Virus record (IMG/VR): IMGVR_UViG_3300028610_000170
Coordinates: 1 to 25,216 of that record
Reading direction: 5' to 3' (one strand)
DNA: 25,216 nt
From: a virus
A program made the position numbers and the translations under genes. Positions 7,824-20,133 of this stretch are shown piece by piece. A model generated the notes under the pieces. It was not told the origin of the DNA. It made no database searches and saw only the letters and a program-made list of their open reading frames with translations. The first letter of the stretch is position 1, and every line of letters begins with the position of its first letter.

Positions 7824-8891
7824 ATGAGTAAAGAAGATGATGGTGACTTTGCGACCGAAAACGCAATGGAAACATCCTCTAGGGGAATGGGTGAATTAGA
7901 TTTAGTTAACATGCTTAAAGGCACTACTCATGCCAAGGCAGAAGACGAATCTGAGGAAGTTCAAGACCAACAAGAGGAAATCGAAGAAACGCAGGAAGAA
8001 GAAACTGAAACAGTTACTGAAGCCCTCTCGACGGAGAAGGCAGAAGAAATTGAGGAAGAATCTGAAACCGAAGAAGAAAATGTTCTTTCAAAGGAAGATA
8101 GGTCTATCGAGAAGATGCGAAAACGTATCGACGAGACTACTTATAAATGGAAAAGTGCTGAAGAAAAGGCTGAAGCTCTTGAAAGGGAAAATGAAGAATT
8201 ACGTAGAAAAGTTGATTCTCCTCAATCTCCCAAACAAGATGCTCCCAAGGGTTTTGCTGAAAAAGTTGAATCTGCCGAAAACATGGACCAGTTACAAAAG
8301 CTATATGATGAGGCTAAACTAGTCAAGTCTAATGCTAAAAAGCTGTTACGTAAAATGGATGATGCAGGAGAAAGCGAAATTGAGCATAACGGCCAAACTC
8401 TTTCAAGAAATGAAATTTATAATGCCCTAGATGACGCTGAGTCAGCTATGGATGGCGACATTCAGAATAAGGCTAATTTATTTCAACAAAAGAGAGAGTA
8501 TGATAAGGTTGCAATAGATACCTTTGATTTTTTTCAAAACACTAAATCTGAATACCATAAAAAGGCACAAGAGTTTTTATCTGACAGCAGCTTAGACAAG
8601 TTTCTAAGAGGCAGAGCAGATGAATACTTTATCTTGGGCTTATTGGTAGAGGGCCAACGTTCGCTTGATTTAAAACAAAAAGCAGCGGAAGCCAAGGAGC
8701 AGGGTAAAACCGATGTTCAAGCAAAGCTAGAATCAACTCCTAAGATAGCACCGGAAGTTCCAGGACTCTCCGGGAAAGTAGCACCAAAACGTCTGACTAA
8801 GGAAGAGAGTAAGATCAAGAAGAAAAGATCTGTTCTTAATCAAAACAAATTAAACGTAAACGACTTAGCAAGTCTACTTTCTAAAAAATAA
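7824..8891 (+). CDS. Capsid scaffolding protein
   Basis: 355 residues lying directly before the major capsid gene, the usual site of scaffold genes. Residues 38-95 are almost continuous Glu with few hydrophobics. 89-130 form a charged coiled coil. 150-290 are helical. The last 40 residues are basic (KRLTKEESKIKKKRS), resembling the capsid-binding C-terminal region of P22-type scaffolds. It would assemble inside the prohead and leave or be degraded before packaging. No protease domain is seen here. The acidic region makes a Lys/Arg-rich frame on the same strand, which is a shadow. Confidence 0.82.
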   Translation: MSKEDDGDFATENAMETSSRGMGELDLVNMLKGTTHAKAEDESEEVQDQQEEIEETQEEETETVTEALSTEKAEEIEEESETEEENVLSKEDRSIEKMRKRIDETTYKWKSAEEKAEALERENEELRRKVDSPQSPKQDAPKGFAEKVESAENMDQLQKLYDEAKLVKSNAKKLLRKMDDAGESEIEHNGQTLSRNEIYNALDDAESAMDGDIQNKANLFQQKREYDKVAIDTFDFFQNTKSEYHKKAQEFLSDSSLDKFLRGRADEYFILGLLVEGQRSLDLKQKAAEAKEQGKTDVQAKLESTPKIAPEVPGLSGKVAPKRLTKEESKIKKKRSVLNQNKLNVNDLASLLSKK

Positions 8892-10427: not shown

Positions 10428-10754
10428 ATGAGTGAAATTATAGTTCCAAACTTTGGCAATGTCCCGCAAAAGGTGTGGGATGTTTTTTACAAATGGGCAC
10501 AAGACGAGCAAATGGCAGATAAGGTTCGCTCTAATTCGTATTTAGAAAGAGTAAAGGCAAGCAATAAGGGCATCGGAGAAAAGTCAATAAACGGCATTGG
10601 TGAATGCTTTGGGCAGATAGATAGCAGAATGTATCACCGTCAAATGCAAAATGACAAAGATTTTTGGAATGATCCATCTAATGTAAAGAAATTCTTCAAG
10701 GATAACCCTCAATATTTAAATCAAACAAAATCAGGATCAACCTATAAGATTTAA
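10428..10754 (+). CDS. Hypothetical head-region protein
   Basis: 108 residues, alternating helix and loop, with many aromatic/Asn residues (VPQKVWDVFYKWAQDEQ at 12-28, FFKDNPQYL near 88-96). No family is recognised. It follows the capsid terminator and ends in an overlap with the adaptor gene (10754 shared base). Its location suggests a head or head-completion role but nothing more specific. No clear Shine-Dalgarno sequence precedes the ATG. Confidence 0.6.
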   Translation: MSEIIVPNFGNVPQKVWDVFYKWAQDEQMADKVRSNSYLERVKASNKGIGEKSINGIGECFGQIDSRMYHRQMQNDKDFWNDPSNVKKFFKDNPQYLNQTKSGSTYKI

Positions 10755-11590
10755 TGGCTAGGACTGAAACATTACAAGTAGTTAGAGATAGGTGGGCTGT
10801 TTTATGCGGATTAGACAGTGACAACCTTATAGATGATGACGCTAGAGATTTCTTTGATTTAGCTAATATAGCCTTAAATAAGGCTTGGCCTAGATCTGAA
10901 TGGCCTTTTTCTATGAAAACATTTCCTAAGCTAAATGATAAGTATGGATTTGTTGATCTATCAAGCGATACAGAAATAAGCGAGGTTTTAAGAGCTTATG
11001 ATTCATATCCTTATAGGTTTAGAACTACAAGAGAATTTAATAGAGTAATACCAGTAGAAGACGCTATGTTTGATGGCGTTTATGTTCCTGGTGTGTCAGA
11101 ACCAGTTGTGGTTTCTGTTACATCAATAACAAGATCAGGAACAACGGTAACCGTTACAACTACTACAGACCACGGATTGCAAGAAGGTCAAGCGGTAGTA
11201 ATCGCAGGCGCAGTAGAAACGGATTATAATGGGACTTTTGACGTAGCTTCAGTGACAAGCAGCACAGTGTATACATATGAGATCTCAACAACTCCAACTA
11301 CTCCGGCAACTGGTACCATAACTAGCACTGGAGCTACGGTTTATTTACTAAGCAGAATTAGGGAAACAGTATTAAGCTCATTGAGTGATACGGTTCCTTA
11401 TAAGCTTTGGAGATATATTGCTTATAAAGCATCTGCAGATTGGCTAAAAGCTGAGGGACAAGAAGAAAAGTCTAGGCTTAGGGACCAAGAAGCAGAAGAC
11501 GTAATTTTAGATGAAATCGATCGATTAGAAAGACAACAACAATGGTTACCACCATTGAATGCAAACCCAAGGGTAAAAGGTATAAGATAA
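10754..11590 (+). CDS. Head-to-tail adaptor with an inserted ~70-residue beta module
   Basis: 278 residues. The N-terminal half (about 1-100) and C-terminal half (about 200-278) are helical: an ALNKAWPRSEWPF helix/turn, then RYIAYKASADWLKAEGQ and a long charged helix. This is like P22 gp4/T7 gp11-type adaptors that bind the portal ring. Between them, residues 119-191 are a Thr/Val-rich beta module (SGTTVTV..DHGLQEGQ..IAGAVETDYNGTF). The same module occurs three times in the nozzle gene at 16544. By hand count the module region is about 45% GC against about 34% in flanking lines, so it looks inserted. It overlaps the previous stop by one base. Confidence 0.75.
   Translation: MARTETLQVVRDRWAVLCGLDSDNLIDDDARDFFDLANIALNKAWPRSEWPFSMKTFPKLNDKYGFVDLSSDTEISEVLRAYDSYPYRFRTTREFNRVIPVEDAMFDGVYVPGVSEPVVVSVTSITRSGTTVTVTTTTDHGLQEGQAVVIAGAVETDYNGTFDVASVTSSTVYTYEISTTPTTPATGTITSTGATVYLLSRIRETVLSSLSDTVPYKLWRYIAYKASADWLKAEGQEEKSRLRDQEAEDVILDEIDRLERQQQWLPPLNANPRVKGIR
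11108..11326 (+). repeat. Shared beta module, copy in the adaptor
   Basis: Residues 119-191 of the adaptor. It shares ITRSGTTVTV, HGLxxGDxVxIxGA, xYNGTF and TPATGTITS with the three nozzle copies. The GAVETDYNG run is identical to nozzle copy 2. It resembles the ubiquitin-activating-E1 FCCH-type domain that automatic annotation often assigns to phage proteins. Confidence 0.7.
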
Positions 11591-11935: not shown

Positions 11936-12823
11936 ATGAGTTTATTATCACAGGGACTTATAGGGCCAGGAGGTGGTGGAGCAGCGGCATCAGATAGAGC
12001 CGGAACGGGTAATCTCGACGGTGATGCAAATGGACTAATTGATACTGCAGAATTTGGAGTAGCATTAGGTTCTCAACCATCATCATCTTTATTAGCAGGT
12101 GCTAAATCTGTTAACGTGGATGGGTCTACTGCATTAAATACGCTAGGAACTGAATCTGTAACCATACAGGCTAATACCACAGCTGCAAGTAGAGCTTCAA
12201 CAGGCACTAGAGCAATCACAATCGGGTATAACTCTGGGGGCAATGGAAATACATCTATTGCTATCGGTCAAAATACGACCGCAGGAGGAACGAACAGCAT
12301 TGCCATTGGTCAGACTGTTACTTTATCAACCCAATCAAATACGGTAGCTATTGGGCAAAGCATATCTTCAATGAACCAAGGTTCTGTTGGTATAGGTTTT
12401 ACTGCTCAAGGTAACGGTCAGCAAGCAGTAGCCATTGGAAATAACCCTACAGCATCAGGCAATAGAGCTATTGCAATTGGAAGGCTAACAGACGCAACTC
12501 AAGAGGGTGCAATTGCTATCGGTGGTGCGGATACTCCTAATGATGGTGCTCAAGCAACAGGTTTAGGTTCTATCGCACTTGGTGGTAAGGACGGAACTAA
12601 TCTTGCGGCAGTAGCGTCTGGAGATCAATCTATTTCTATTGGAACAGGGTCAAATGCAACTGCATCAGCTGCAATTCAACTCGGAGATGGAACCAATTCA
12701 ACTGCAGATAGTTGTCAAATCGGATCATCTACAAATCCACTAGAAATATTTTTAAATCTACCAACATCAGCAGGCACAACAGGGTCATTATGGAATGACT
12801 CAGGAACAGTCAAGGTTTCATAA
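11936..12823 (+). CDS. YadA-head-like repeat fibre protein with an EF-hand loop
   Basis: 295 residues. From about residue 95 it repeats the AIAIG-type motif at roughly 14-residue intervals (SIAIGQ, SIAIGQ, TVAIGQ, AVAIGN, AIAIGR, AIAIGG). This is the signature of YadA head left-handed beta-roll repeats, which trimerise in adhesins. Residues 28-39 are DGDANGLIDTAE, fitting every ligand position of a canonical EF-hand loop (D28, D30, N32, D36, E39). The tail LPTSAGTTGSLWNDSGTVKVS is a recurrent phage C-terminal block. A trimeric host-binding or connector fibre is likely. No signal peptide is seen, so it is not a surface adhesin of the host. Confidence 0.78.
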   Translation: MSLLSQGLIGPGGGGAAASDRAGTGNLDGDANGLIDTAEFGVALGSQPSSSLLAGAKSVNVDGSTALNTLGTESVTIQANTTAASRASTGTRAITIGYNSGGNGNTSIAIGQNTTAGGTNSIAIGQTVTLSTQSNTVAIGQSISSMNQGSVGIGFTAQGNGQQAVAIGNNPTASGNRAIAIGRLTDATQEGAIAIGGADTPNDGAQATGLGSIALGGKDGTNLAAVASGDQSISIGTGSNATASAAIQLGDGTNSTADSCQIGSSTNPLEIFLNLPTSAGTTGSLWNDSGTVKVS

Positions 12824-13140: not shown

Positions 13141-15147
13141 ATGGCATATAAAGGCAACGACAAGCAGTTAAGAAACATTAACGAGTCGCTTTCGGTTGAT
13201 GAAGCAACAACTGAAACGCTTGGAATCGTTGAACTTGCCGAAAACAACGAAAATGCTCCAAAGGTTGTCGTCCAGGGCAATGACGATAGACTGTCAAATG
13301 AGCGTATTCCTGTAGATAATAGCGCAACCAACGTAAAGTTGGCTGATATGGATCCTCAAACAATCAAGGGTCGTATCATTGGCTCTACTGGCGACCCACA
13401 AGATCTTACCGCATCTCAGGTGCGAAGCATTATTAATGTGGAAGATGGTGCTAATAATTACGTCCATCCTAACCATAGTGGCGACGTTGTGTCAGCGGGT
13501 GATGGAGCCACTACAATACAGCCAAACGTCGTGGATAACAGTAAGGCTGATGATATGGCTGTAAACACCATAAAGGGCCGTATAACGGCAGGAACGGGCG
13601 ACCCTGAAGACCTTACAGCAACACAAGTTCGCACGATAATTAACGTACAAGACGGGGCCAACAATTATACGCACCCTGATCATACTGGAGACGTGGCAAG
13701 TGTTGGTGATGGTGCAACAACAATTAATAATGACGTTGTTAATAATGCCAAGCTTACCAATATGGCAGAAGATACGATTAAAGGTCGTATCACAACAGGA
13801 ACGGGTGATCCAGAAGATCTTACAGCATCACAGGTAAGAACGATTATAAATGTTGCTGATGGCGCAAACAATTATGTTCACCCAGACCATAGTGGGGATA
13901 TTGTTTCTGTTGGTGATGGCGCAACCACCATACAGGATGACGTAGTTACAAATGCTAAAGCAGCGAACATGCCTGCAAACACAGTAAAGCTAAACAATAC
14001 AAACGCAGCATCAGACCCAAATGATTTATCTATGCCTGCGTCTACGATATTGGCTAGACTTTCAACAGGAGATATAATAGCAGCAAACCCAACCCAAGTA
14101 AAAGATTTACTTGATATTGAAGAAGGACCGTTGCCTATAATCGTTCTATCTTCTACAGATACATCGACAACTATAAGTCAATCTACAGCACAAATTTTAT
14201 CATGGGATGTCGAAACTGAAAAAGATAGCGCATTTACGCATGACAACTCAACAAACAATAGCAGAATAACAATTGTAGATGATGGCACTTATAAAATTCA
14301 AGCAAATATAAGAGTTGAATCGTCAGGGCAACGATTGCAGCTTGTTTCAAAGATTTTAATAAATGGCGTAGTGCAATCTCAGCCTTTTGGGTCTGCATAC
14401 ATTAGAAACGCTGGAAATGCTTCTGATTTTTGGACATGCGTAGTCAATCCACCTCCTATAAAATTAAGCGCAGGAGACTACGTTGAAGTACAGACACAAG
14501 TAGAGTCTCAAACAACAACAGCAATTACAGGAACTTTTCAAGGAACAGATTCGAGTTTTTCTGTTACTTATCTTAAAGCTTTAAAGGGTGATAAAGGCGA
14601 CGCTGGAGCAGGCTCAAATATTATAGTTCAAGAAGATGATTCAACAATAGGAACCGTAACAGATACTTTAAACTTTGAAGGGAATGTAAGCTTAACAGAT
14701 GAGGGCTCAAATAAAACAACGGTTAATGTAGATGCGAGTAAAATTGTTTTTTCAGACTATATAATTGGTGTTACATCGGACCCTAGCACTACTGCAACGT
14801 CTAGCGGTGCTGCTCCTGTTATTTCTGAAATGACAAAAACATTTACGCCAGCCAGTGCAAGCAACAAAATTGAAGTTTATTTTAGTGGAACATTTACAAA
14901 TACAAATTTTGCATCAGATGAAAATGCAAGAATAGCAATTTTTATTGATGGAACAATAGAGCCAGAAACAGAAAGAAGAACTTTTGTATATCCTGGAGAT
15001 GAATATTTTGGCAATTTGACAACTTTTTGGCAGGGATCATTAAGCGCATCATCACACACAATTACGATTAGAATGTGGGGTAGTGGTGGAACTACAGAGG
15101 CCGAGGGTGTTTTAAGAAACCTGCTTATTAGGGAAATTCAAGAATAG
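13141..15147 (+). CDS. Long tail fibre with 69-residue repeats and two jelly-roll-like domains
   Basis: 668 residues. Residues 74-280 are three exact-period (69-residue) copies opening TIKGRI and containing GDPxDLTAxQVRxIINVxDGANNYxHPxHxGD. A fourth starts at 281 but breaks down. Residues about 333-480 form a Thr/Ser-rich beta domain resembling phage C1q/TNF-like jelly rolls. A short collagen-like KGDKGDAG follows (482-489). Residues 538-668 form a second beta domain, probably the receptor-binding tip. N-terminal residues 1-70 would attach to the tail. It is the best candidate for the host-specificity fibre. It is followed by a small protein with one short gap. Confidence 0.82.
   Translation: MAYKGNDKQLRNINESLSVDEATTETLGIVELAENNENAPKVVVQGNDDRLSNERIPVDNSATNVKLADMDPQTIKGRIIGSTGDPQDLTASQVRSIINVEDGANNYVHPNHSGDVVSAGDGATTIQPNVVDNSKADDMAVNTIKGRITAGTGDPEDLTATQVRTIINVQDGANNYTHPDHTGDVASVGDGATTINNDVVNNAKLTNMAEDTIKGRITTGTGDPEDLTASQVRTIINVADGANNYVHPDHSGDIVSVGDGATTIQDDVVTNAKAANMPANTVKLNNTNAASDPNDLSMPASTILARLSTGDIIAANPTQVKDLLDIEEGPLPIIVLSSTDTSTTISQSTAQILSWDVETEKDSAFTHDNSTNNSRITIVDDGTYKIQANIRVESSGQRLQLVSKILINGVVQSQPFGSAYIRNAGNASDFWTCVVNPPPIKLSAGDYVEVQTQVESQTTTAITGTFQGTDSSFSVTYLKALKGDKGDAGAGSNIIVQEDDSTIGTVTDTLNFEGNVSLTDEGSNKTTVNVDASKIVFSDYIIGVTSDPSTTATSSGAAPVISEMTKTFTPASASNKIEVYFSGTFTNTNFASDENARIAIFIDGTIEPETERRTFVYPGDEYFGNLTTFWQGSLSASSHTITIRMWGSGGTTEAEGVLRNLLIREIQE
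13360..13980 (+). repeat. Three tandem 207-bp repeats in the fibre gene
   Basis: Copies run 13360-13566, 13567-13773 and 13774-13980, all exactly 207 bp, and a degenerate fourth begins at 13981. The encoded 69-residue units are very similar in protein, yet their codons have drifted, so the duplication is old or was kept by selection. Confidence 0.85.
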
Positions 15148-15152
15148 TTGTT

Positions 15153-15662
15153 ATGGAAAATTTAAAAACATACAGAATTGATTCTGATATAGCATCTCAA
15201 AGCTTAAATCCAGCAAAGCTAAGCAATGAGATTAATGATTCTTTATCCGTCAATGGTCTTGAAGCTATAAACACTGAAGGCAACTTTTTTCACATAATAG
15301 GAACAAGCATTGAAAACGAATCTTCATTAGATCAAGTCGTGAATGAACATGTTTCTTCAAGTCAATCAGATGATTTGCTTTCAGAGTATGTAAAATACGA
15401 AAAAGACGGAAAAAAGTATTTTAATGAAATCAGGGCAAGGCTTGTATCCGATTATCATAACGGGACCAAATCTTCATTAGATATCTATACTATTGAGGAT
15501 AAGCTTGAAAAGGTTACAGCAAGAGTTAGGCGAGGCGACTGGATGACAGCAGCTTACGAATTGTCAAATATATTGCCAGAAGATATAATAGATCAAACTC
15601 TGTATAATGACATATCCACGGGAATAGCAACATATATTGTAAATAATTATACGCAAACTTAA
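15153..15662 (+). CDS. Hypothetical fibre-associated protein
   Basis: 169 residues, soluble and helical. It has an N-terminal segment (YRIDSDIASQSLNPAKLSNEIND), an acidic Ser-rich middle and helices near 110-135 (VRRGDWMTAAYELSNILP). Placed right after the long fibre and before the membrane cassette, it may be a fibre chaperone or tail-fibre partner. No family is recognised with confidence. Confidence 0.55.
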   Translation: MENLKTYRIDSDIASQSLNPAKLSNEINDSLSVNGLEAINTEGNFFHIIGTSIENESSLDQVVNEHVSSSQSDDLLSEYVKYEKDGKKYFNEIRARLVSDYHNGTKSSLDIYTIEDKLEKVTARVRRGDWMTAAYELSNILPEDIIDQTLYNDISTGIATYIVNNYTQT

Positions 15663-15663
15663 G

Positions 15664-16110
15664 ATGATTGAAGTATTACTAACAATATTTACAGGAGGTG
15701 GCGCAGTAGGACTAGGTTCTATTTTTAAAATATTTGCTGGTTGGATGGACTCTCGAGCACACCTCAAAGAGTTAAAAGAAGCAAGAAAGGCTAGAAATGA
15801 AGAAATATTTATTAAGTCTCAAGATAATCTGTTTACTCGGACTACTCGCAGGATGCTCGCTATCATTGGAATCTCAACGCTCGCGATCGTTACAATCCAC
15901 TGCACCCTTATACCAGACCAAACAATTATCACACTTAAATCAGTTGCCAGCGGAGGAGACAAAACTCCTTGGTCGTTATTATGGGGTTTGGTTACGATAC
16001 CACCAAGTAATGATCCAGTACAAGTCACGACTGGGCATTTAGCTATAATGAACTGCGTAACCTTTGGAATGATCATAGGTTACTATTACACACCAGGAGG
16101 AAGAAAGTAA
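15664..16110 (+). CDS. Putative holin-like multi-span membrane protein
   Basis: 148 residues. The N-terminus is hydrophobic and Gly-rich (VLLTIFTGGGAVGLGSIF, 4-21). A charged helix follows (HLKELKEARKARNEE). There are then three hydrophobic stretches: 64-83 (RMLAIIGISTLAIVTIHC), about 100-112 and 121-141 (AIMNCVTFGMIIGYYYT). This is like GTA-type 3-TM holins. It may let the endolysin cross the membrane, but no endolysin is in the window. A second gene (15797-16042) is encoded inside it in another frame. The TAA overlaps the next ATG (TAATG). Confidence 0.6.
   Translation: MIEVLLTIFTGGGAVGLGSIFKIFAGWMDSRAHLKELKEARKARNEEIFIKSQDNLFTRTTRRMLAIIGISTLAIVTIHCTLIPDQTIITLKSVASGGDKTPWSLLWGLVTIPPSNDPVQVTTGHLAIMNCVTFGMIIGYYYTPGGRK
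15797..16042 (+). CDS. Nested lipoprotein, o-spanin (Rz1)-like
   Basis: 81 residues in the +1 frame of the holin-like gene, starting at its codon 45. AGAAAGG ends six bases before the ATG. The product begins MKKYLL with a hydrophobic run and an LLAGC lipobox, so Cys20 should be lipidated after signal peptidase II cleavage. The mature 62 residues (C20-I81) are soluble, Ser-rich at first. An out-of-frame nested outer-membrane lipoprotein is the lambda Rz1 arrangement, but the enclosing gene is a multi-span protein rather than an Rz-like inner-membrane spanin. A real nested gene is likely. The spanin role is inferred, and it lacks the Pro-rich character of lambda Rz1. Confidence 0.6.
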   Translation: MKKYLLSLKIICLLGLLAGCSLSLESQRSRSLQSTAPLYQTKQLSHLNQLPAEETKLLGRYYGVWLRYHQVMIQYKSRLGI

Positions 16111-16547
16111 TGCAAGGCGAATCTAGTGAAAAATTAGACTCTTTAATGGTTGAGATCGTTAAGGTTTCAGGCCTTATGAACGACGTTTCGAAAGAGGTCC
16201 ACAAGTTAAACAATAGAATGATTGGCATTGAAACTGTTTTAAATGGAATAAACGGAGTCGGAGGCGTTGTAGATGACATTAAGAATATGGGGCAGAAGCT
16301 TCATAGACACGGTAATCAAATGAATAAATTTCAAAAAGATATTAGTGTCTTAGAGAACGATCACGAGAATTTAAAAAGCGTAGTTAAAGACCATAATGAA
16401 AAGATAAAAACCCTATTCATAGAAAATAATAATAATAAAGTAAACTCTGCCGGAATTAGCGCAAAATTAGCAATGATAATAACTTTTATATCAACAATTA
16501 TGGCAGCGATAGTCGGACTCGGAATCAAATACATAGAATCGAAATGA
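16110..16547 (+). CDS. Coiled-coil protein with C-terminal membrane anchor, XhlA-like
   Basis: 145 residues. A long polar helix, about 5-110 with heptads (LDSLMVEIVKVSGLMNDV..., VLENDHENLKSVVKDH), ends in one membrane helix at 119-140 (KLAMIITFISTIMAAIVGLG). This resembles the architecture of phage XhlA-type holin partners, or of a tail-anchored inner-membrane spanin. It is translated from AGGAGG upstream of an ATG that overlaps the previous stop, and its end overlaps the nozzle start (ATGA). Placement beside a holin-like and a lipoprotein gene supports a lysis role. Confidence 0.6.
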   Translation: MQGESSEKLDSLMVEIVKVSGLMNDVSKEVHKLNNRMIGIETVLNGINGVGGVVDDIKNMGQKLHRHGNQMNKFQKDISVLENDHENLKSVVKDHNEKIKTLFIENNNNKVNSAGISAKLAMIITFISTIMAAIVGLGIKYIESK

Positions 16548-18874
16548 CTAGAAGAAGAGATAGAGCCAATTTTGACGACCCAATAACACCTTCACTAGAT
16601 ACTGGTTTTATTGGTTTTGAAACAAGACGAGATCCAGGGCTATTAGAACCTGGCGTTATGTCTTTTGCTCAAAACATAAGAATAGAAGATAGCAACGCTG
16701 AGGTTAGAGCTGGAGTCGACAGATTAACAGCTGATATCTTAGATGAGGGAGATCCTTTATTTTTACCGTTTACGCTTGCAGGGGAGAGAGCGGTAGCATC
16801 TATCACCAGAAGCGGCTCTACGGCCACTGTAACGCTTTCTGATACGCCTATAACGCCATATGCTAATGGCGATGAGGTAGAGATAAAAGGAGCCGACCAA
16901 AGCGAGTATAACGGAAGCTTTACGCTTACATTTGTATCAAGCACAGTGTTTACAATTACCGTAGCTGGAACGCCAGCAACACCAGCTACAGGAACAATAA
17001 CATCATCTCCAGTATTAGGACCACCAACAGACGGAGTATTTGCATCTACACTTTTTAGTGATGTTGATACAAATAAAGAGTATGTTGCAATGGCTACGCT
17101 GGATAAAGTTATTTTGGTAGATCCAGATAATCCTACAGATACATTAGATATTTTTTATGCTGAAGATAGTCCAGTAGAAGAGCAATTTGAGATTACTGAC
17201 AATGGAGATATGCTTCAAGTTGGTAACGGTTTATTAATTAATAGGGGTAAATTTAAAAAGGCTTTAGAATGGGATGGAAACTTATCACCGACAGAGGCAA
17301 GAAACGTTACATCGATGACTCGATCAGGAACGACCGTAACAGTGAATACGGACTTAGAGCACGAATACAGACTCGGAGATATCATAACAATAGCAGGAGC
17401 GGTAGAGACGGATTACAATGGAACACACACAATAACGAATATTGTGGACGACGACACCTATGAATTTGAAATAGCTACTACACCGACATCACCAGCGACA
17501 GGCACAATAACTAGCGCATTAAGACCTCAGTTTGAAATAAGAAAAGATACTAATTTTCCTGGGTTTCTTAGTATGCCAGATGCTGAGTTTAGCGAATATC
17601 ACCCATTTGCAAGGCTTGCAATTCCATTAAGGGTTCTAGAACAAGACCTTATAAGCATTACAAGAAGCGGAGCCGTAGCAACCGCAACAACAGCAAATAA
17701 CCATGGATTACTAAAGGGTGACAGAATTAATATTTTGGGTGCTGGCCAAACAGAATATAATGGAATATTTGAAATCACCGACACAACAGAAAAGACATTC
17801 GATTATTTAGTCGTAGGAGCTCCCGTGACGCCCGCTAGTGGGTCTAAAAAGCGCGTTCGTGTTGATGTAAGGGATCAGTTCATAGTTTCGGACATCTACG
17901 ACCACAGGACGTATGATCCGGTAAACAACCTATTTAGAATTAATAGAGGAACAGCAGACTCTTTAGTGGGACTGAAAACTTTTCAAAATGACAATTTCTT
18001 AGCTTTATATGAAAAAAGCATACATGTCATAACAGATATATCTTCTCCTAACTTAGACCAAGACGCAAGTATATATCTTATTACTGACGAGGTAGGTGTT
18101 GTTGCTAGGAAGACAGCTGAAATAATTGGCAGAAATCTTATATTCCTTTCTGAGCAAGGGGTTTATATGCTAGAGATTACTCCTGAGATTAACTTAAGAG
18201 GTCGAGAAATACCGCTAAGCGAAGACATTCAGGATGAATTTAGCAAAGAAAAGCTTAATTATAATAAGATTACAGATTCAGTTGCTACCTATTTTAACAA
18301 TAGATATTACATTGCAGTGCCTGCAGCAGGTAGCGACCGCAACAACATTGTCTTTGTTTATAACTTTATAAATAATAAGTGGGAATCAAAAGACACCTTT
18401 GGATCTGATAACTTTATCGATAATTGGGTTGTATGTAAAAAGGACGGTAAAGATCGTTTATTTGCAACATCACTAGAAGGTAGCCTTCAATTATACGAAG
18501 AGCTTGATCATGATGAGCTTGGTAGTGTTCCGACAGACACAGAAATACCTGCACAAATCATCACAAGAGAGTATAATGGTGCTGGACCAATGGGACGCAT
18601 GGAAGTCAAGAAATTCCATAGAGGTTCTTTGAATATTACCTCTAAAAACGGAGACGACATTGATGTTACTGCGATTACCAGAGATCCAGATTCTACGGTA
18701 ACTTCTGCTAATTATGCATTTACCGCAGATGAAGAGTGTTTAAAAAGATTTAGAATTAATAAAAGAGGAACAGGATGCCGAATACAAGTAGATGTCAATG
18801 CTGGACGACCAAAGATAAGGTCTTCTTCAGTAGAGCATTCCGAGACTCAAAGAGCTAATAAAACATTTGAATAA
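16544..18874 (+). CDS. Tail nozzle protein with three inserted beta modules
   Basis: 776 residues. The start (FETRRDPGLLEPGVMSFAQNIRI) and the region 440-776, with repeated strand-turn units, a KTFQNDNFLALYEKSIHVIT run and NNKWESKDTF, resemble tail tubular protein B/P22 gp10-like nozzle proteins of the short tail. Three ~70-residue Thr-rich modules interrupt it (about 82-155, 254-325, 369-436), each opening with an (I/M)TRSG motif. The modules are GC-richer than the adjacent gene. It would sit below the adaptor, closing the tail until ejection. The distance from the adaptor gene (5 kb, with fibres and membrane genes between) is unusual for the family. Confidence 0.75.
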   Translation: MTRRRDRANFDDPITPSLDTGFIGFETRRDPGLLEPGVMSFAQNIRIEDSNAEVRAGVDRLTADILDEGDPLFLPFTLAGERAVASITRSGSTATVTLSDTPITPYANGDEVEIKGADQSEYNGSFTLTFVSSTVFTITVAGTPATPATGTITSSPVLGPPTDGVFASTLFSDVDTNKEYVAMATLDKVILVDPDNPTDTLDIFYAEDSPVEEQFEITDNGDMLQVGNGLLINRGKFKKALEWDGNLSPTEARNVTSMTRSGTTVTVNTDLEHEYRLGDIITIAGAVETDYNGTHTITNIVDDDTYEFEIATTPTSPATGTITSALRPQFEIRKDTNFPGFLSMPDAEFSEYHPFARLAIPLRVLEQDLISITRSGAVATATTANNHGLLKGDRINILGAGQTEYNGIFEITDTTEKTFDYLVVGAPVTPASGSKKRVRVDVRDQFIVSDIYDHRTYDPVNNLFRINRGTADSLVGLKTFQNDNFLALYEKSIHVITDISSPNLDQDASIYLITDEVGVVARKTAEIIGRNLIFLSEQGVYMLEITPEINLRGREIPLSEDIQDEFSKEKLNYNKITDSVATYFNNRYYIAVPAAGSDRNNIVFVYNFINNKWESKDTFGSDNFIDNWVVCKKDGKDRLFATSLEGSLQLYEELDHDELGSVPTDTEIPAQIITREYNGAGPMGRMEVKKFHRGSLNITSKNGDDIDVTAITRDPDSTVTSANYAFTADEECLKRFRINKRGTGCRIQVDVNAGRPKIRSSSVEHSETQRANKTFE
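16787..17008 (+). repeat. Shared beta module, nozzle copy 1
   Basis: Residues 82-155 of the nozzle, about 46% GC over the 200 bases counted (16801-17000). SITRSGSTATVTL, NGDEVEIKGADQSEYNG and PATPATGTITS align with the other copies. Confidence 0.7.
17303..17518 (+). repeat. Shared beta module, nozzle copy 2
   Basis: Residues 254-325, 92 of 210 bases GC (44%), against about 32% in the preceding 240 bases. It contains GAVETDYNG, identical to the adaptor copy, so these two copies are the most alike. Confidence 0.72.
17648..17851 (+). repeat. Shared beta module, nozzle copy 3 (diverged)
   Basis: Residues 369-436 (SITRSGAVATATT, HGLLKGDRINILGA, TEYNGIFE, TPASGS). The most diverged copy; the closing TITS is replaced by SKKR. 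GC is about 39-42%. Confidence 0.65.
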
Positions 18875-19276: not shown

Positions 19277-19588
19277 ATGGCAAACTTATCAGCACTACTA
19301 GGAGGGGGCGTAAAAAGCGTCACAAGATACACAATACCAAAGGCATCTGTTACCGAGAATAATGATTGGTCGCAGTCCTTTACAATTACTGCGGTTGCCG
19401 ATGTCAACAAGACAAGTCTTAACCTACTCACAGCGCAACATGGCAAGTGGGACGGGGCTACAAACTTTTTTGCAGGAGCCTTGCTAGGGATTAGGTTGTC
19501 TAATACAACTACAGTAGAATACATATCTACAACAAATGCAGATGGCGGAGAAACAGAAATCGCATTTGAGGTAATAGAATATAATTAA
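19277..19588 (+). CDS. Small beta-rich virion protein
   Basis: 103 residues, strand-rich with a Gly-rich N-terminus (ALLGGGVKSV), a VNKTSLNLL strand and a final VEYI...EVIEYN. It resembles ~100-residue phage structural proteins with a conserved SVxR start and a terminal VxE-aromatic strand. The ligand and function are unknown. It overlaps the sulfotransferase-like start by one base. Confidence 0.6.
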   Translation: MANLSALLGGGVKSVTRYTIPKASVTENNDWSQSFTITAVADVNKTSLNLLTAQHGKWDGATNFFAGALLGIRLSNTTTVEYISTTNADGGETEIAFEVIEYN

Positions 19589-20133
19589 TGGAACCATTTG
19601 TCATTATATCATTACCAAGGTCAATGTCAGCATGGGTTGCCAACTGGTTCACTCAAGATGGCGTTTTGTGCTATCACGAAGGTAACAGTGATTATTTCAC
19701 ACTTGGTAATTTATATATGAATAATGATAACCACAAAAAAAGGTTAGGAGATTGCAGTTCATCACTAGCCTTAATGAATTTAGACGAAATACTTTCTGAT
19801 AAATTTACTGGCAAAATAGGATATATCGAGCGCGACAAAGAAGAATGCATACAATCATATGATAAGGTTAACCCAGTAAAAGACCAGCATGACACTCGTC
19901 TTATTATTAATGTTGTTAAAGAGTGTATTGATAAAATTTTATCAAAAAAGAAACATTTTAAAATTAATTACAAAGACTTACTAAAAGAAGACAAGTTTAA
20001 ACTTTTTCATGAGTATTTAACCCCAGAGGTATTATTCTCAAGTGAAAGATATAATATGTTAAAAGATTTAGTAGTAACTCAAAAAGTAGAAGAAGTTTAT
20101 AATAGGAAGGTTAAACAATGGCAGCAGCATTAG
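19588..20133 (+). CDS. Sulfotransferase-like protein
   Basis: 181 residues, shorter than most soluble sulfotransferases (250 or more). IISLPRSMSAWVANWF (6-21) fits the 5'-phosphosulfate loop of the family (PRSxTxW), and IGYIERDKEECIQSYDK fits the 3'-phosphate motif (RDxxxxxxS). Such enzymes move a sulfuryl group from PAPS to a hydroxyl or amine. Related PRSRTAW-containing proteins occur in phage tail regions. Met13 and Ser14 differ from the more usual Arg/Gly and Thr, so binding may be altered. It could modify a virion or host glycan, or have lost activity. No signal peptide. The stop lies inside the next gene. Confidence 0.72.
   Translation: MEPFVIISLPRSMSAWVANWFTQDGVLCYHEGNSDYFTLGNLYMNNDNHKKRLGDCSSSLALMNLDEILSDKFTGKIGYIERDKEECIQSYDKVNPVKDQHDTRLIINVVKECIDKILSKKKHFKINYKDLLKEDKFKLFHEYLTPEVLFSSERYNMLKDLVVTQKVEEVYNRKVKQWQQH

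Follow-up and report, generated by a model that had tools for sequence, protein, structure and literature searches.

Spanin gene layouts

Two-component spanins are encoded by embedded, overlapped or separated genes, and an embedded o-spanin lies within the gene of its own i-spanin (PMC6139136, PMC9636201). Among 677 surveyed phages with Gram-negative hosts, two-component spanins fall into these three layouts, and 91 phages lack a recognizable spanin (PMC6139136). Unimolecular spanins (u-spanins) are defined by an N-terminal lipobox combined with a C-terminal transmembrane segment (TM) (PMC6139136). Spanins are usually traced through phage lipoprotein genes, which are described as rare, while embedded o-spanins usually stay unannotated; the same study allows for a type I protein with its TM at the C-terminus acting as an i-spanin (Kongari 2018, PMC6139136).

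The window described here, a virus record of 25,216 bases analyzed over its whole length, contains a tailed-phage structural region. One of its genes, here called the host gene, surrounds a lipoprotein open reading frame (ORF) read in the +1 frame. The features of this locus are listed below.

15153..15662, + strand: upstream neighbor adjoining the host gene, 169-residue acidic protein without a TM
15664..16110, + strand: host gene, 148-residue membrane protein with an N-terminal hydrophobic Gly-rich stretch, a basic helix, a clear TM at residues 65-83 and a weaker C-terminal hydrophobic segment
15787..15790, + strand: possible Shine-Dalgarno sequence AAGG of the nested ORF, 6 nt 5' of the ATG
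15797..16042, + strand: nested lipoprotein ORF of 81 residues in the +1 frame, proposed to be o-spanin-like
15845..15856, + strand: lipobox L-A-G-C of the nested ORF, with the Cys20 codon TGC (15854-15856) made from the host M64-L65 codons and Ser at +2
16110..16547, + strand: downstream gene, 145-residue coiled-coil-like protein with a single C-terminal TM, a candidate unconventional partner unlike a classical type II i-spanin
16544..18874, + strand: syntenic anchor gene marking the same locus in relatives; its homolog in phage C75C1 is annotated "head closure Hc3"

The locus resembles the embedded pairs Rz/Rz1 of lambda and 18.5/18.7 of T7 in several respects. A small predicted signal peptidase II (SPase II) lipoprotein lies wholly within a membrane-protein gene in the +1 frame, the nested start falls in the first third to half of that gene, the residue at +2 is not Asp and there is some enrichment of Pro. 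In contrast to these pairs, the host protein appears to have several TMs and no periplasmic coiled-coil C-terminus, instead of being a type II single-TM i-spanin, and the candidate i-spanin is a separate upstream gene, found in a sister clade. The o-spanin frame of gp105/gp106 from Caulobacter phage phiCbK also overlaps the gene of a protein that has at least two TMs; there, however, the i-spanin carries a periplasmic helical C-terminal domain, whereas the TMs come after the helical part here. Unimolecular spanins such as T1 gp11 and the cobavirus spanins are comparable because a gene of that topology apparently substitutes for the function at the same position in sister phages, but the nested gene has no TM after its lipobox, and the u-spanin-like family is unrelated to it in sequence. 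The nested gene looks o-spanin-like yet lacks the defining feature of embedded Rz/Rz1 genes, a host gene that encodes the i-spanin. A search of the open-access literature found no published case in which a holin gene or another multi-TM gene contains a gene for an o-spanin or lipoprotein, and the layout has probably not been described before.

The nested frame and its host gene

The nested ORF starts 133 nt after the host start and thereby lies in the +1 frame. Its product, MKKYLLSLKIICLLGLLAGCSLSLESQRSRSLQSTAPLYQTKQLSHLNQLPAEETKLLGRYYGVWLRYHQVMIQYKSRLGI, begins with MKKYLLSLKIICLLGLLAGC, followed by Ser at +2. The predicted signal peptide contains K2 and K3 in the n-region, a hydrophobic core of ∼15 residues and the LAGC motif with Cys20. 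The original prediction of a signal peptide and LLAGC lipobox in an ORF at 15797-16042, in the +1 frame of 15664-16110, is correct in coordinates and frame; the Shine-Dalgarno sequence it proposed is present as well, although AAGG is a modest one. On both strands of the window, this is the sole lipobox ORF found. Ser at +2 leads to an expected sorting of the product to the outer membrane.

The host protein is less clear in its topology. Hydropathy shows an evident TM at residues 65-83. Both terminal spans come out weak in the window protein, and the earlier description as "multi-span" is only partly firm. The host homolog of the related contig L037 shows two clear TMs, including the C-terminal span, with the N-terminal span again weak; class I holins have three TMs in an N-out/C-in arrangement. 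By hydropathy, the host is not a single-TM type II protein, and its C-terminus following the hydrophobic segment is basic; it does not have the character of an i-spanin surrounding its own o-spanin. The GTA_holin_3TM family (PF11351) shares with it a Gly-rich hydrophobic N-terminus, a charged helix, a TM, a loop and a C-terminal TM. The homolog L147 shows a weak full-length match to PF11351 (E = 0.02, 15.8 bits, below the cut-off of 24.8); the window protein and all other family members show none, no protein reaches the curated cut-off, and a PF11351 search of seven relative genomes gives no match. A nested lipoprotein is not known from GTA holins. The term "holin-like" applied earlier to the host draws on the topology and the weak Pfam match of one homolog, and the host is a possible holin.

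Neither the host nor the nested product of the window has a meaningful family match in Pfam or PHROG, and a PDB sequence search gives no match. The AlphaFold model of the host is poor and uninformative (pLDDT 58, pTM 0.31). A fold search with this low-confidence model returns no match below E = 0.001, and its weak matches to Rz proteins probably reflect the long helix. Phage C75C1 and Verrucomicrobia phage P8625 encode 3-TM-like proteins at the syntenic position that share a GFYF motif with the host, but a profile comparison gives no support for homology (hhalign probability of 5.6%). Because this homology is unsupported, the lack of a nested lipoprotein in the C75C1 and P8625 proteins is not scored as a loss.

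Several further observations concern other parts of the window. The anchor gene at 16544-18874 contains several internal repeats of the segment SITRSGTTVTV...YNG...TPATGTITS, and a similar segment is also found in 10754-11590. A gene of the phage structural region at 11936-12823 contains YadA-head repeats (PF05658, E = 6e-13). The protein encoded at 19588-20133, starting with MEPFVIISLPRSMSAWVANWF, shows by eye a likeness to sulfotransferase-type P-loops and has no Pfam match. A highly basic out-of-frame ORF of 130 residues at 7930-8322, within a putative scaffold gene, looks artefactual, with Glu-rich codons in another frame.

Conservation of the nested frame in relatives

As a lone query, the window protein finds no relative in viral contigs or phages. 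Relatives were reached through synteny with the contigs L020 and L037, followed by a search with the window/L037 pair alignment. L037 encodes a 154-residue host homolog with 42% identity to the window protein and a +1 lipobox ORF. L020 carries a 190-residue gene in the same slot with 24% host identity and a +1 ORF with an LLLACS lipobox. The pair-alignment search yielded 134 loci, of which the best 80 were taken, from viral contigs and one contig of a metagenome-assembled genome (MAG). The latter, L147 from a Candidatus Arcticimaribacter MAG, is the lone match in the genome collection and contains the nested lipobox frame.

A long open +1 frame occurs in all of these best 80 of 134 loci, and a lipobox-type Cys is located where the second hydrophobic segment begins in 66 of 69 distinct homologs. 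The original prediction had named homologs without the nested frame or the lipobox as evidence against itself; the homologs keep both. At +2, the nested products contain Ser, Leu, Gln, Val or Ala, with Asp in 0 of 69 homologs. The predicted mature part has a median length of 62 residues with ∼5 Pro.

More distant phages, related through their terminase or capsid genes, encode separate lipoproteins of 48 residues with FLAGC, FLASC or LTSC lipoboxes (L008:20941-21087, L015:20257-20403, L025 [minus strand] 13832-13978 and L054:14424-14570); these are a possible stand-alone counterpart of the nested gene. A 36.5-kb genome of the sister clade encodes an integrase-family protein (L149:5527-6510; PF00589, E = 1.4e-7), and the clade may be temperate.

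Selection on the nested frame

A lipobox frame of this kind could in principle be an echo of host conservation. TM-coding DNA read in the +1 frame is rich in Leu, Cys and Ser, and Met-Leu or Met-Phe codons give a Cys automatically. Direct reading confirms that the TM codons are rich in Leu, Ser and Cys in the +1 frame, and the lipobox Cys indeed derives from host Met-Leu or Met-Phe codons. Synonymous shuffling, in which codons are permuted within each gene and the host protein is left unchanged, argues strongly against such an echo. The open +1 run of 88 codons in the window exceeds the expectation from 500 shuffles of the window gene (null mean of 31; P = 0.002), and none of these shuffles contains a signal-peptide-II motif. 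Under a strict rule, 13 of 18 representative real genes show the signal-peptide motif, compared to 0 to 0.6% of their host-preserving shuffles. The same strict rule applied to 787 distinct ORFs of at least 100 residues from the fetched loci and the window gives 50 matches, all of them in the host gene and in the +1 frame; the pattern is seen in no other gene.

Among 66 distinct homologs of 154 codons, +1 stops are absent from codons 39-130 and frequent outside this region, at codons 5, 9, 21 and 28 and at codons 131, 138 and 142. The synonymous difference amounts to 0.204 in the mature region compared to 0.380 outside (33 independent pairs; 95% confidence interval of the difference, -0.239 to -0.115). 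The lowest local synonymous rate, 0.48 of the expectation, is found at codons 115-125; the constraint is thus strongest in the mature part and outside the TM, contrary to what an echo of the membrane segment predicts. Across lineages saturated in synonymous changes, the +1 proteins are closer than the shuffles allow (window/L140, z = 4.2; L147/L067, z = 4.0), with the exception of the pair L147/L140 (z = 0.3). The substitution tests concern the sister clade; direct support for selection in the window itself comes from the shuffle test and the cross-lineage similarity.

Site-level evidence comes from the residue preceding the lipid-accepting Cys. Two Cys residues are usable as the lipid site, at +1 codons 72 and 78. 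All 57 homologs with Cys78 encode host Gly77 by GGG or GGC, the only glycine codons giving Gly or Ala before Cys78, although GGA and GGT together account for 64% of the glycine codons outside the overlap. On a tree built without codon 77, this site has switched independently between GGG and GGC no fewer than 11 times, whereas other glycine sites range over two to four codons. The Gly77 codon is free in the nine homologs without Cys78; here, Arg71 is encoded by AGG or CGG in 9 of 9, giving Gly before Cys72. The codons at Gly77 and Arg71 therefore fit whichever Cys is used. The shuffles, the scan of 787 ORFs and these codon tests refute chance or a TM echo for the family, leaving this explanation hardly any probability. 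The nested ORF is real and conserved, its codon choice is tuned to the lipobox, and it is not a product of chance, because shuffles fail to recreate the signal peptide, +1 stops are absent and synonymous change is depressed.

Exchange of the cassette in the sister clade

The genes of the sister clade follow the order p114, p74, the host gene with its nested lipoprotein, p50 and the homolog of the window gene 16544-18874. p114, present in 74 of 80 loci, shows a single N-terminal TM followed by a negatively charged C-terminal part, an i-spanin-like topology. p74, a protein of 74 residues with a TM and a helix, has a weak and non-specific PHROG match to "Rz-like spanin" (E = 0.0075), and the PHROG match of p50 to "holin" (E = 0.038) is likewise weak and non-specific. 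The flanks of the window differ from this arrangement, with a soluble protein of 169 residues upstream and a coiled-coil protein of 145 residues with a C-terminal TM downstream.

Other phages of the sister clade lack p114, p74 and the host gene and contain one lipoprotein gene of 151 to 153 residues in their slot. The replacement gene L065:12002-12463 codes for an N-terminal MASC lipobox and a TM at residues 102-120 of 153, which is the topology of a u-spanin. It represents an unannotated u-spanin-like family with a lipobox, a Gly-rich segment and a C-terminal TM, found at 125 or more loci in viral contigs (further examples are L039:6623-7078 and L155-L234) and without a match in the phage collection. 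This family alternates with the nested-lipoprotein cassette. In a scan with the replacement protein, host, p114 and p74 occur in 0 of the best 80 of 125 loci, and the replacement gene occurs in 0 of the 80 host loci (best 80 of 134), so that the two cassettes never co-occur in these 80 plus 80 loci. L122 and L221 have 99.6% identical anchor genes despite different cassettes. Between L109 and L222, a segment of 1.1 kb is cleanly swapped for one of 0.67 kb, and the sequences on either side are 94% and 97% identical. Both pairs combine nearly identical surroundings with distinct lysis-type cassettes, which shows that cassettes were recently exchanged between these phages.

Probable function of the nested lipoprotein

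The nested gene probably encodes the outer-membrane subunit of a two-component spanin-type system, overprinted on a gene for a multi-TM inner-membrane protein. This functional assignment is drawn from sequence features and gene context. If the ORF is translated, as we infer, SPase II would cleave the product at Cys20, and the lipidated protein would end up in the outer membrane, in its inner leaflet. Once an endolysin has opened the peptidoglycan, the lipoprotein would engage an inner-membrane partner, leading to fusion or disruption of the outer membrane. The best candidate partner in the large sister clade is p114, the type II single-TM protein encoded two genes upstream, perhaps together with the 74-residue protein. 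No single N-terminal-TM type II protein adjoins the nested gene in the window, where no classical i-spanin was seen, and no endolysin was recognized among the scanned proteins of the window or its relatives.

The block containing the nested gene is read as a spanin-type outer-membrane disruption block because it is interchangeable with a gene of u-spanin topology. The original prediction had offered either a new spanin layout or another class of nested lipoprotein, and the retained frame and lipobox with their tuned codons bear this out; the exchange for a u-spanin-like gene favors the spanin branch. p114, p74 and the host disappear in the swap as well, so that any one of them could carry the function common to both cassettes. 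For the same reason, the host could belong to the spanin system instead of being a holin, and p50, which is kept by both cassette types, would then be the better holin candidate.

A real lipoprotein with a role other than that of a spanin is an unlikely but sensible alternative: a lipid-anchored, antiholin-like regulator of lysis timing acting on the protein of the surrounding gene, or a lipoprotein of superinfection exclusion or of the envelope. Co-encoding with a multi-TM holin-like protein suits such a regulator, antiholins are often encoded within or overlapping holin genes (PMC9025707, PMC7182436), and the missing classical i-spanin beside the nested gene in the window points the same way. 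Against this stand the replacement of the cassette by a lipoprotein of u-spanin topology in the same slot and the mature part of the nested product, which is short, contains Pro and does not have Asp at +2, like outer-membrane o-spanins. Another proposal accepts the o-spanin role, thus overlapping with the preferred explanation, and differs only in the partner: the host itself would be an unusual multi-TM i-spanin with the o-spanin embedded in its +1 frame, a classical embedded architecture. The i-spanins of phiCbK-like phages, with extra N-terminal TMs and an overlapping o-spanin (PMC3556154), provide a precedent; the swap removes the host along with the nested gene, and the window shows no other i-spanin candidate. 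The host, however, has no periplasmic C-terminal domain but a basic C-terminus after a hydrophobic segment, and the basic helix preceding its clear TM is expected in the cytoplasm. In the sister clade, the host is accompanied by p114, a type II protein with a gene of its own, and the low-confidence host model yields no significant fold match, which together make a host i-spanin rather improbable.

Within the preferred assignment as an outer-membrane subunit, a more specific arrangement is put forward tentatively, at somewhat less than even confidence: the gene overprinted by the subunit may be that of a holin, or of some other membrane protein of lysis, and not that of an i-spanin, an architecture beyond the embedded, overlapped and separated layouts. 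A pore former and an outer-membrane disruptor would then share the same DNA, with the whole block exchanged in nature as a single unit for a unimolecular spanin.

Implications for phage lysis genes

The locus, shared by a family of uncultured phages, provides a clean case of overprinting with site-level evidence of selection on a lipobox. The alternation of cassettes amounts to a natural experiment in which a two-component-like block and a single u-spanin-like gene replace each other. Annotation pipelines that penalize overlapping genes are likely to miss the nested lipoprotein gene, and outer-membrane disruptors that seem to be missing may be hidden in this way, as selected lipoprotein frames within other lysis-type genes.
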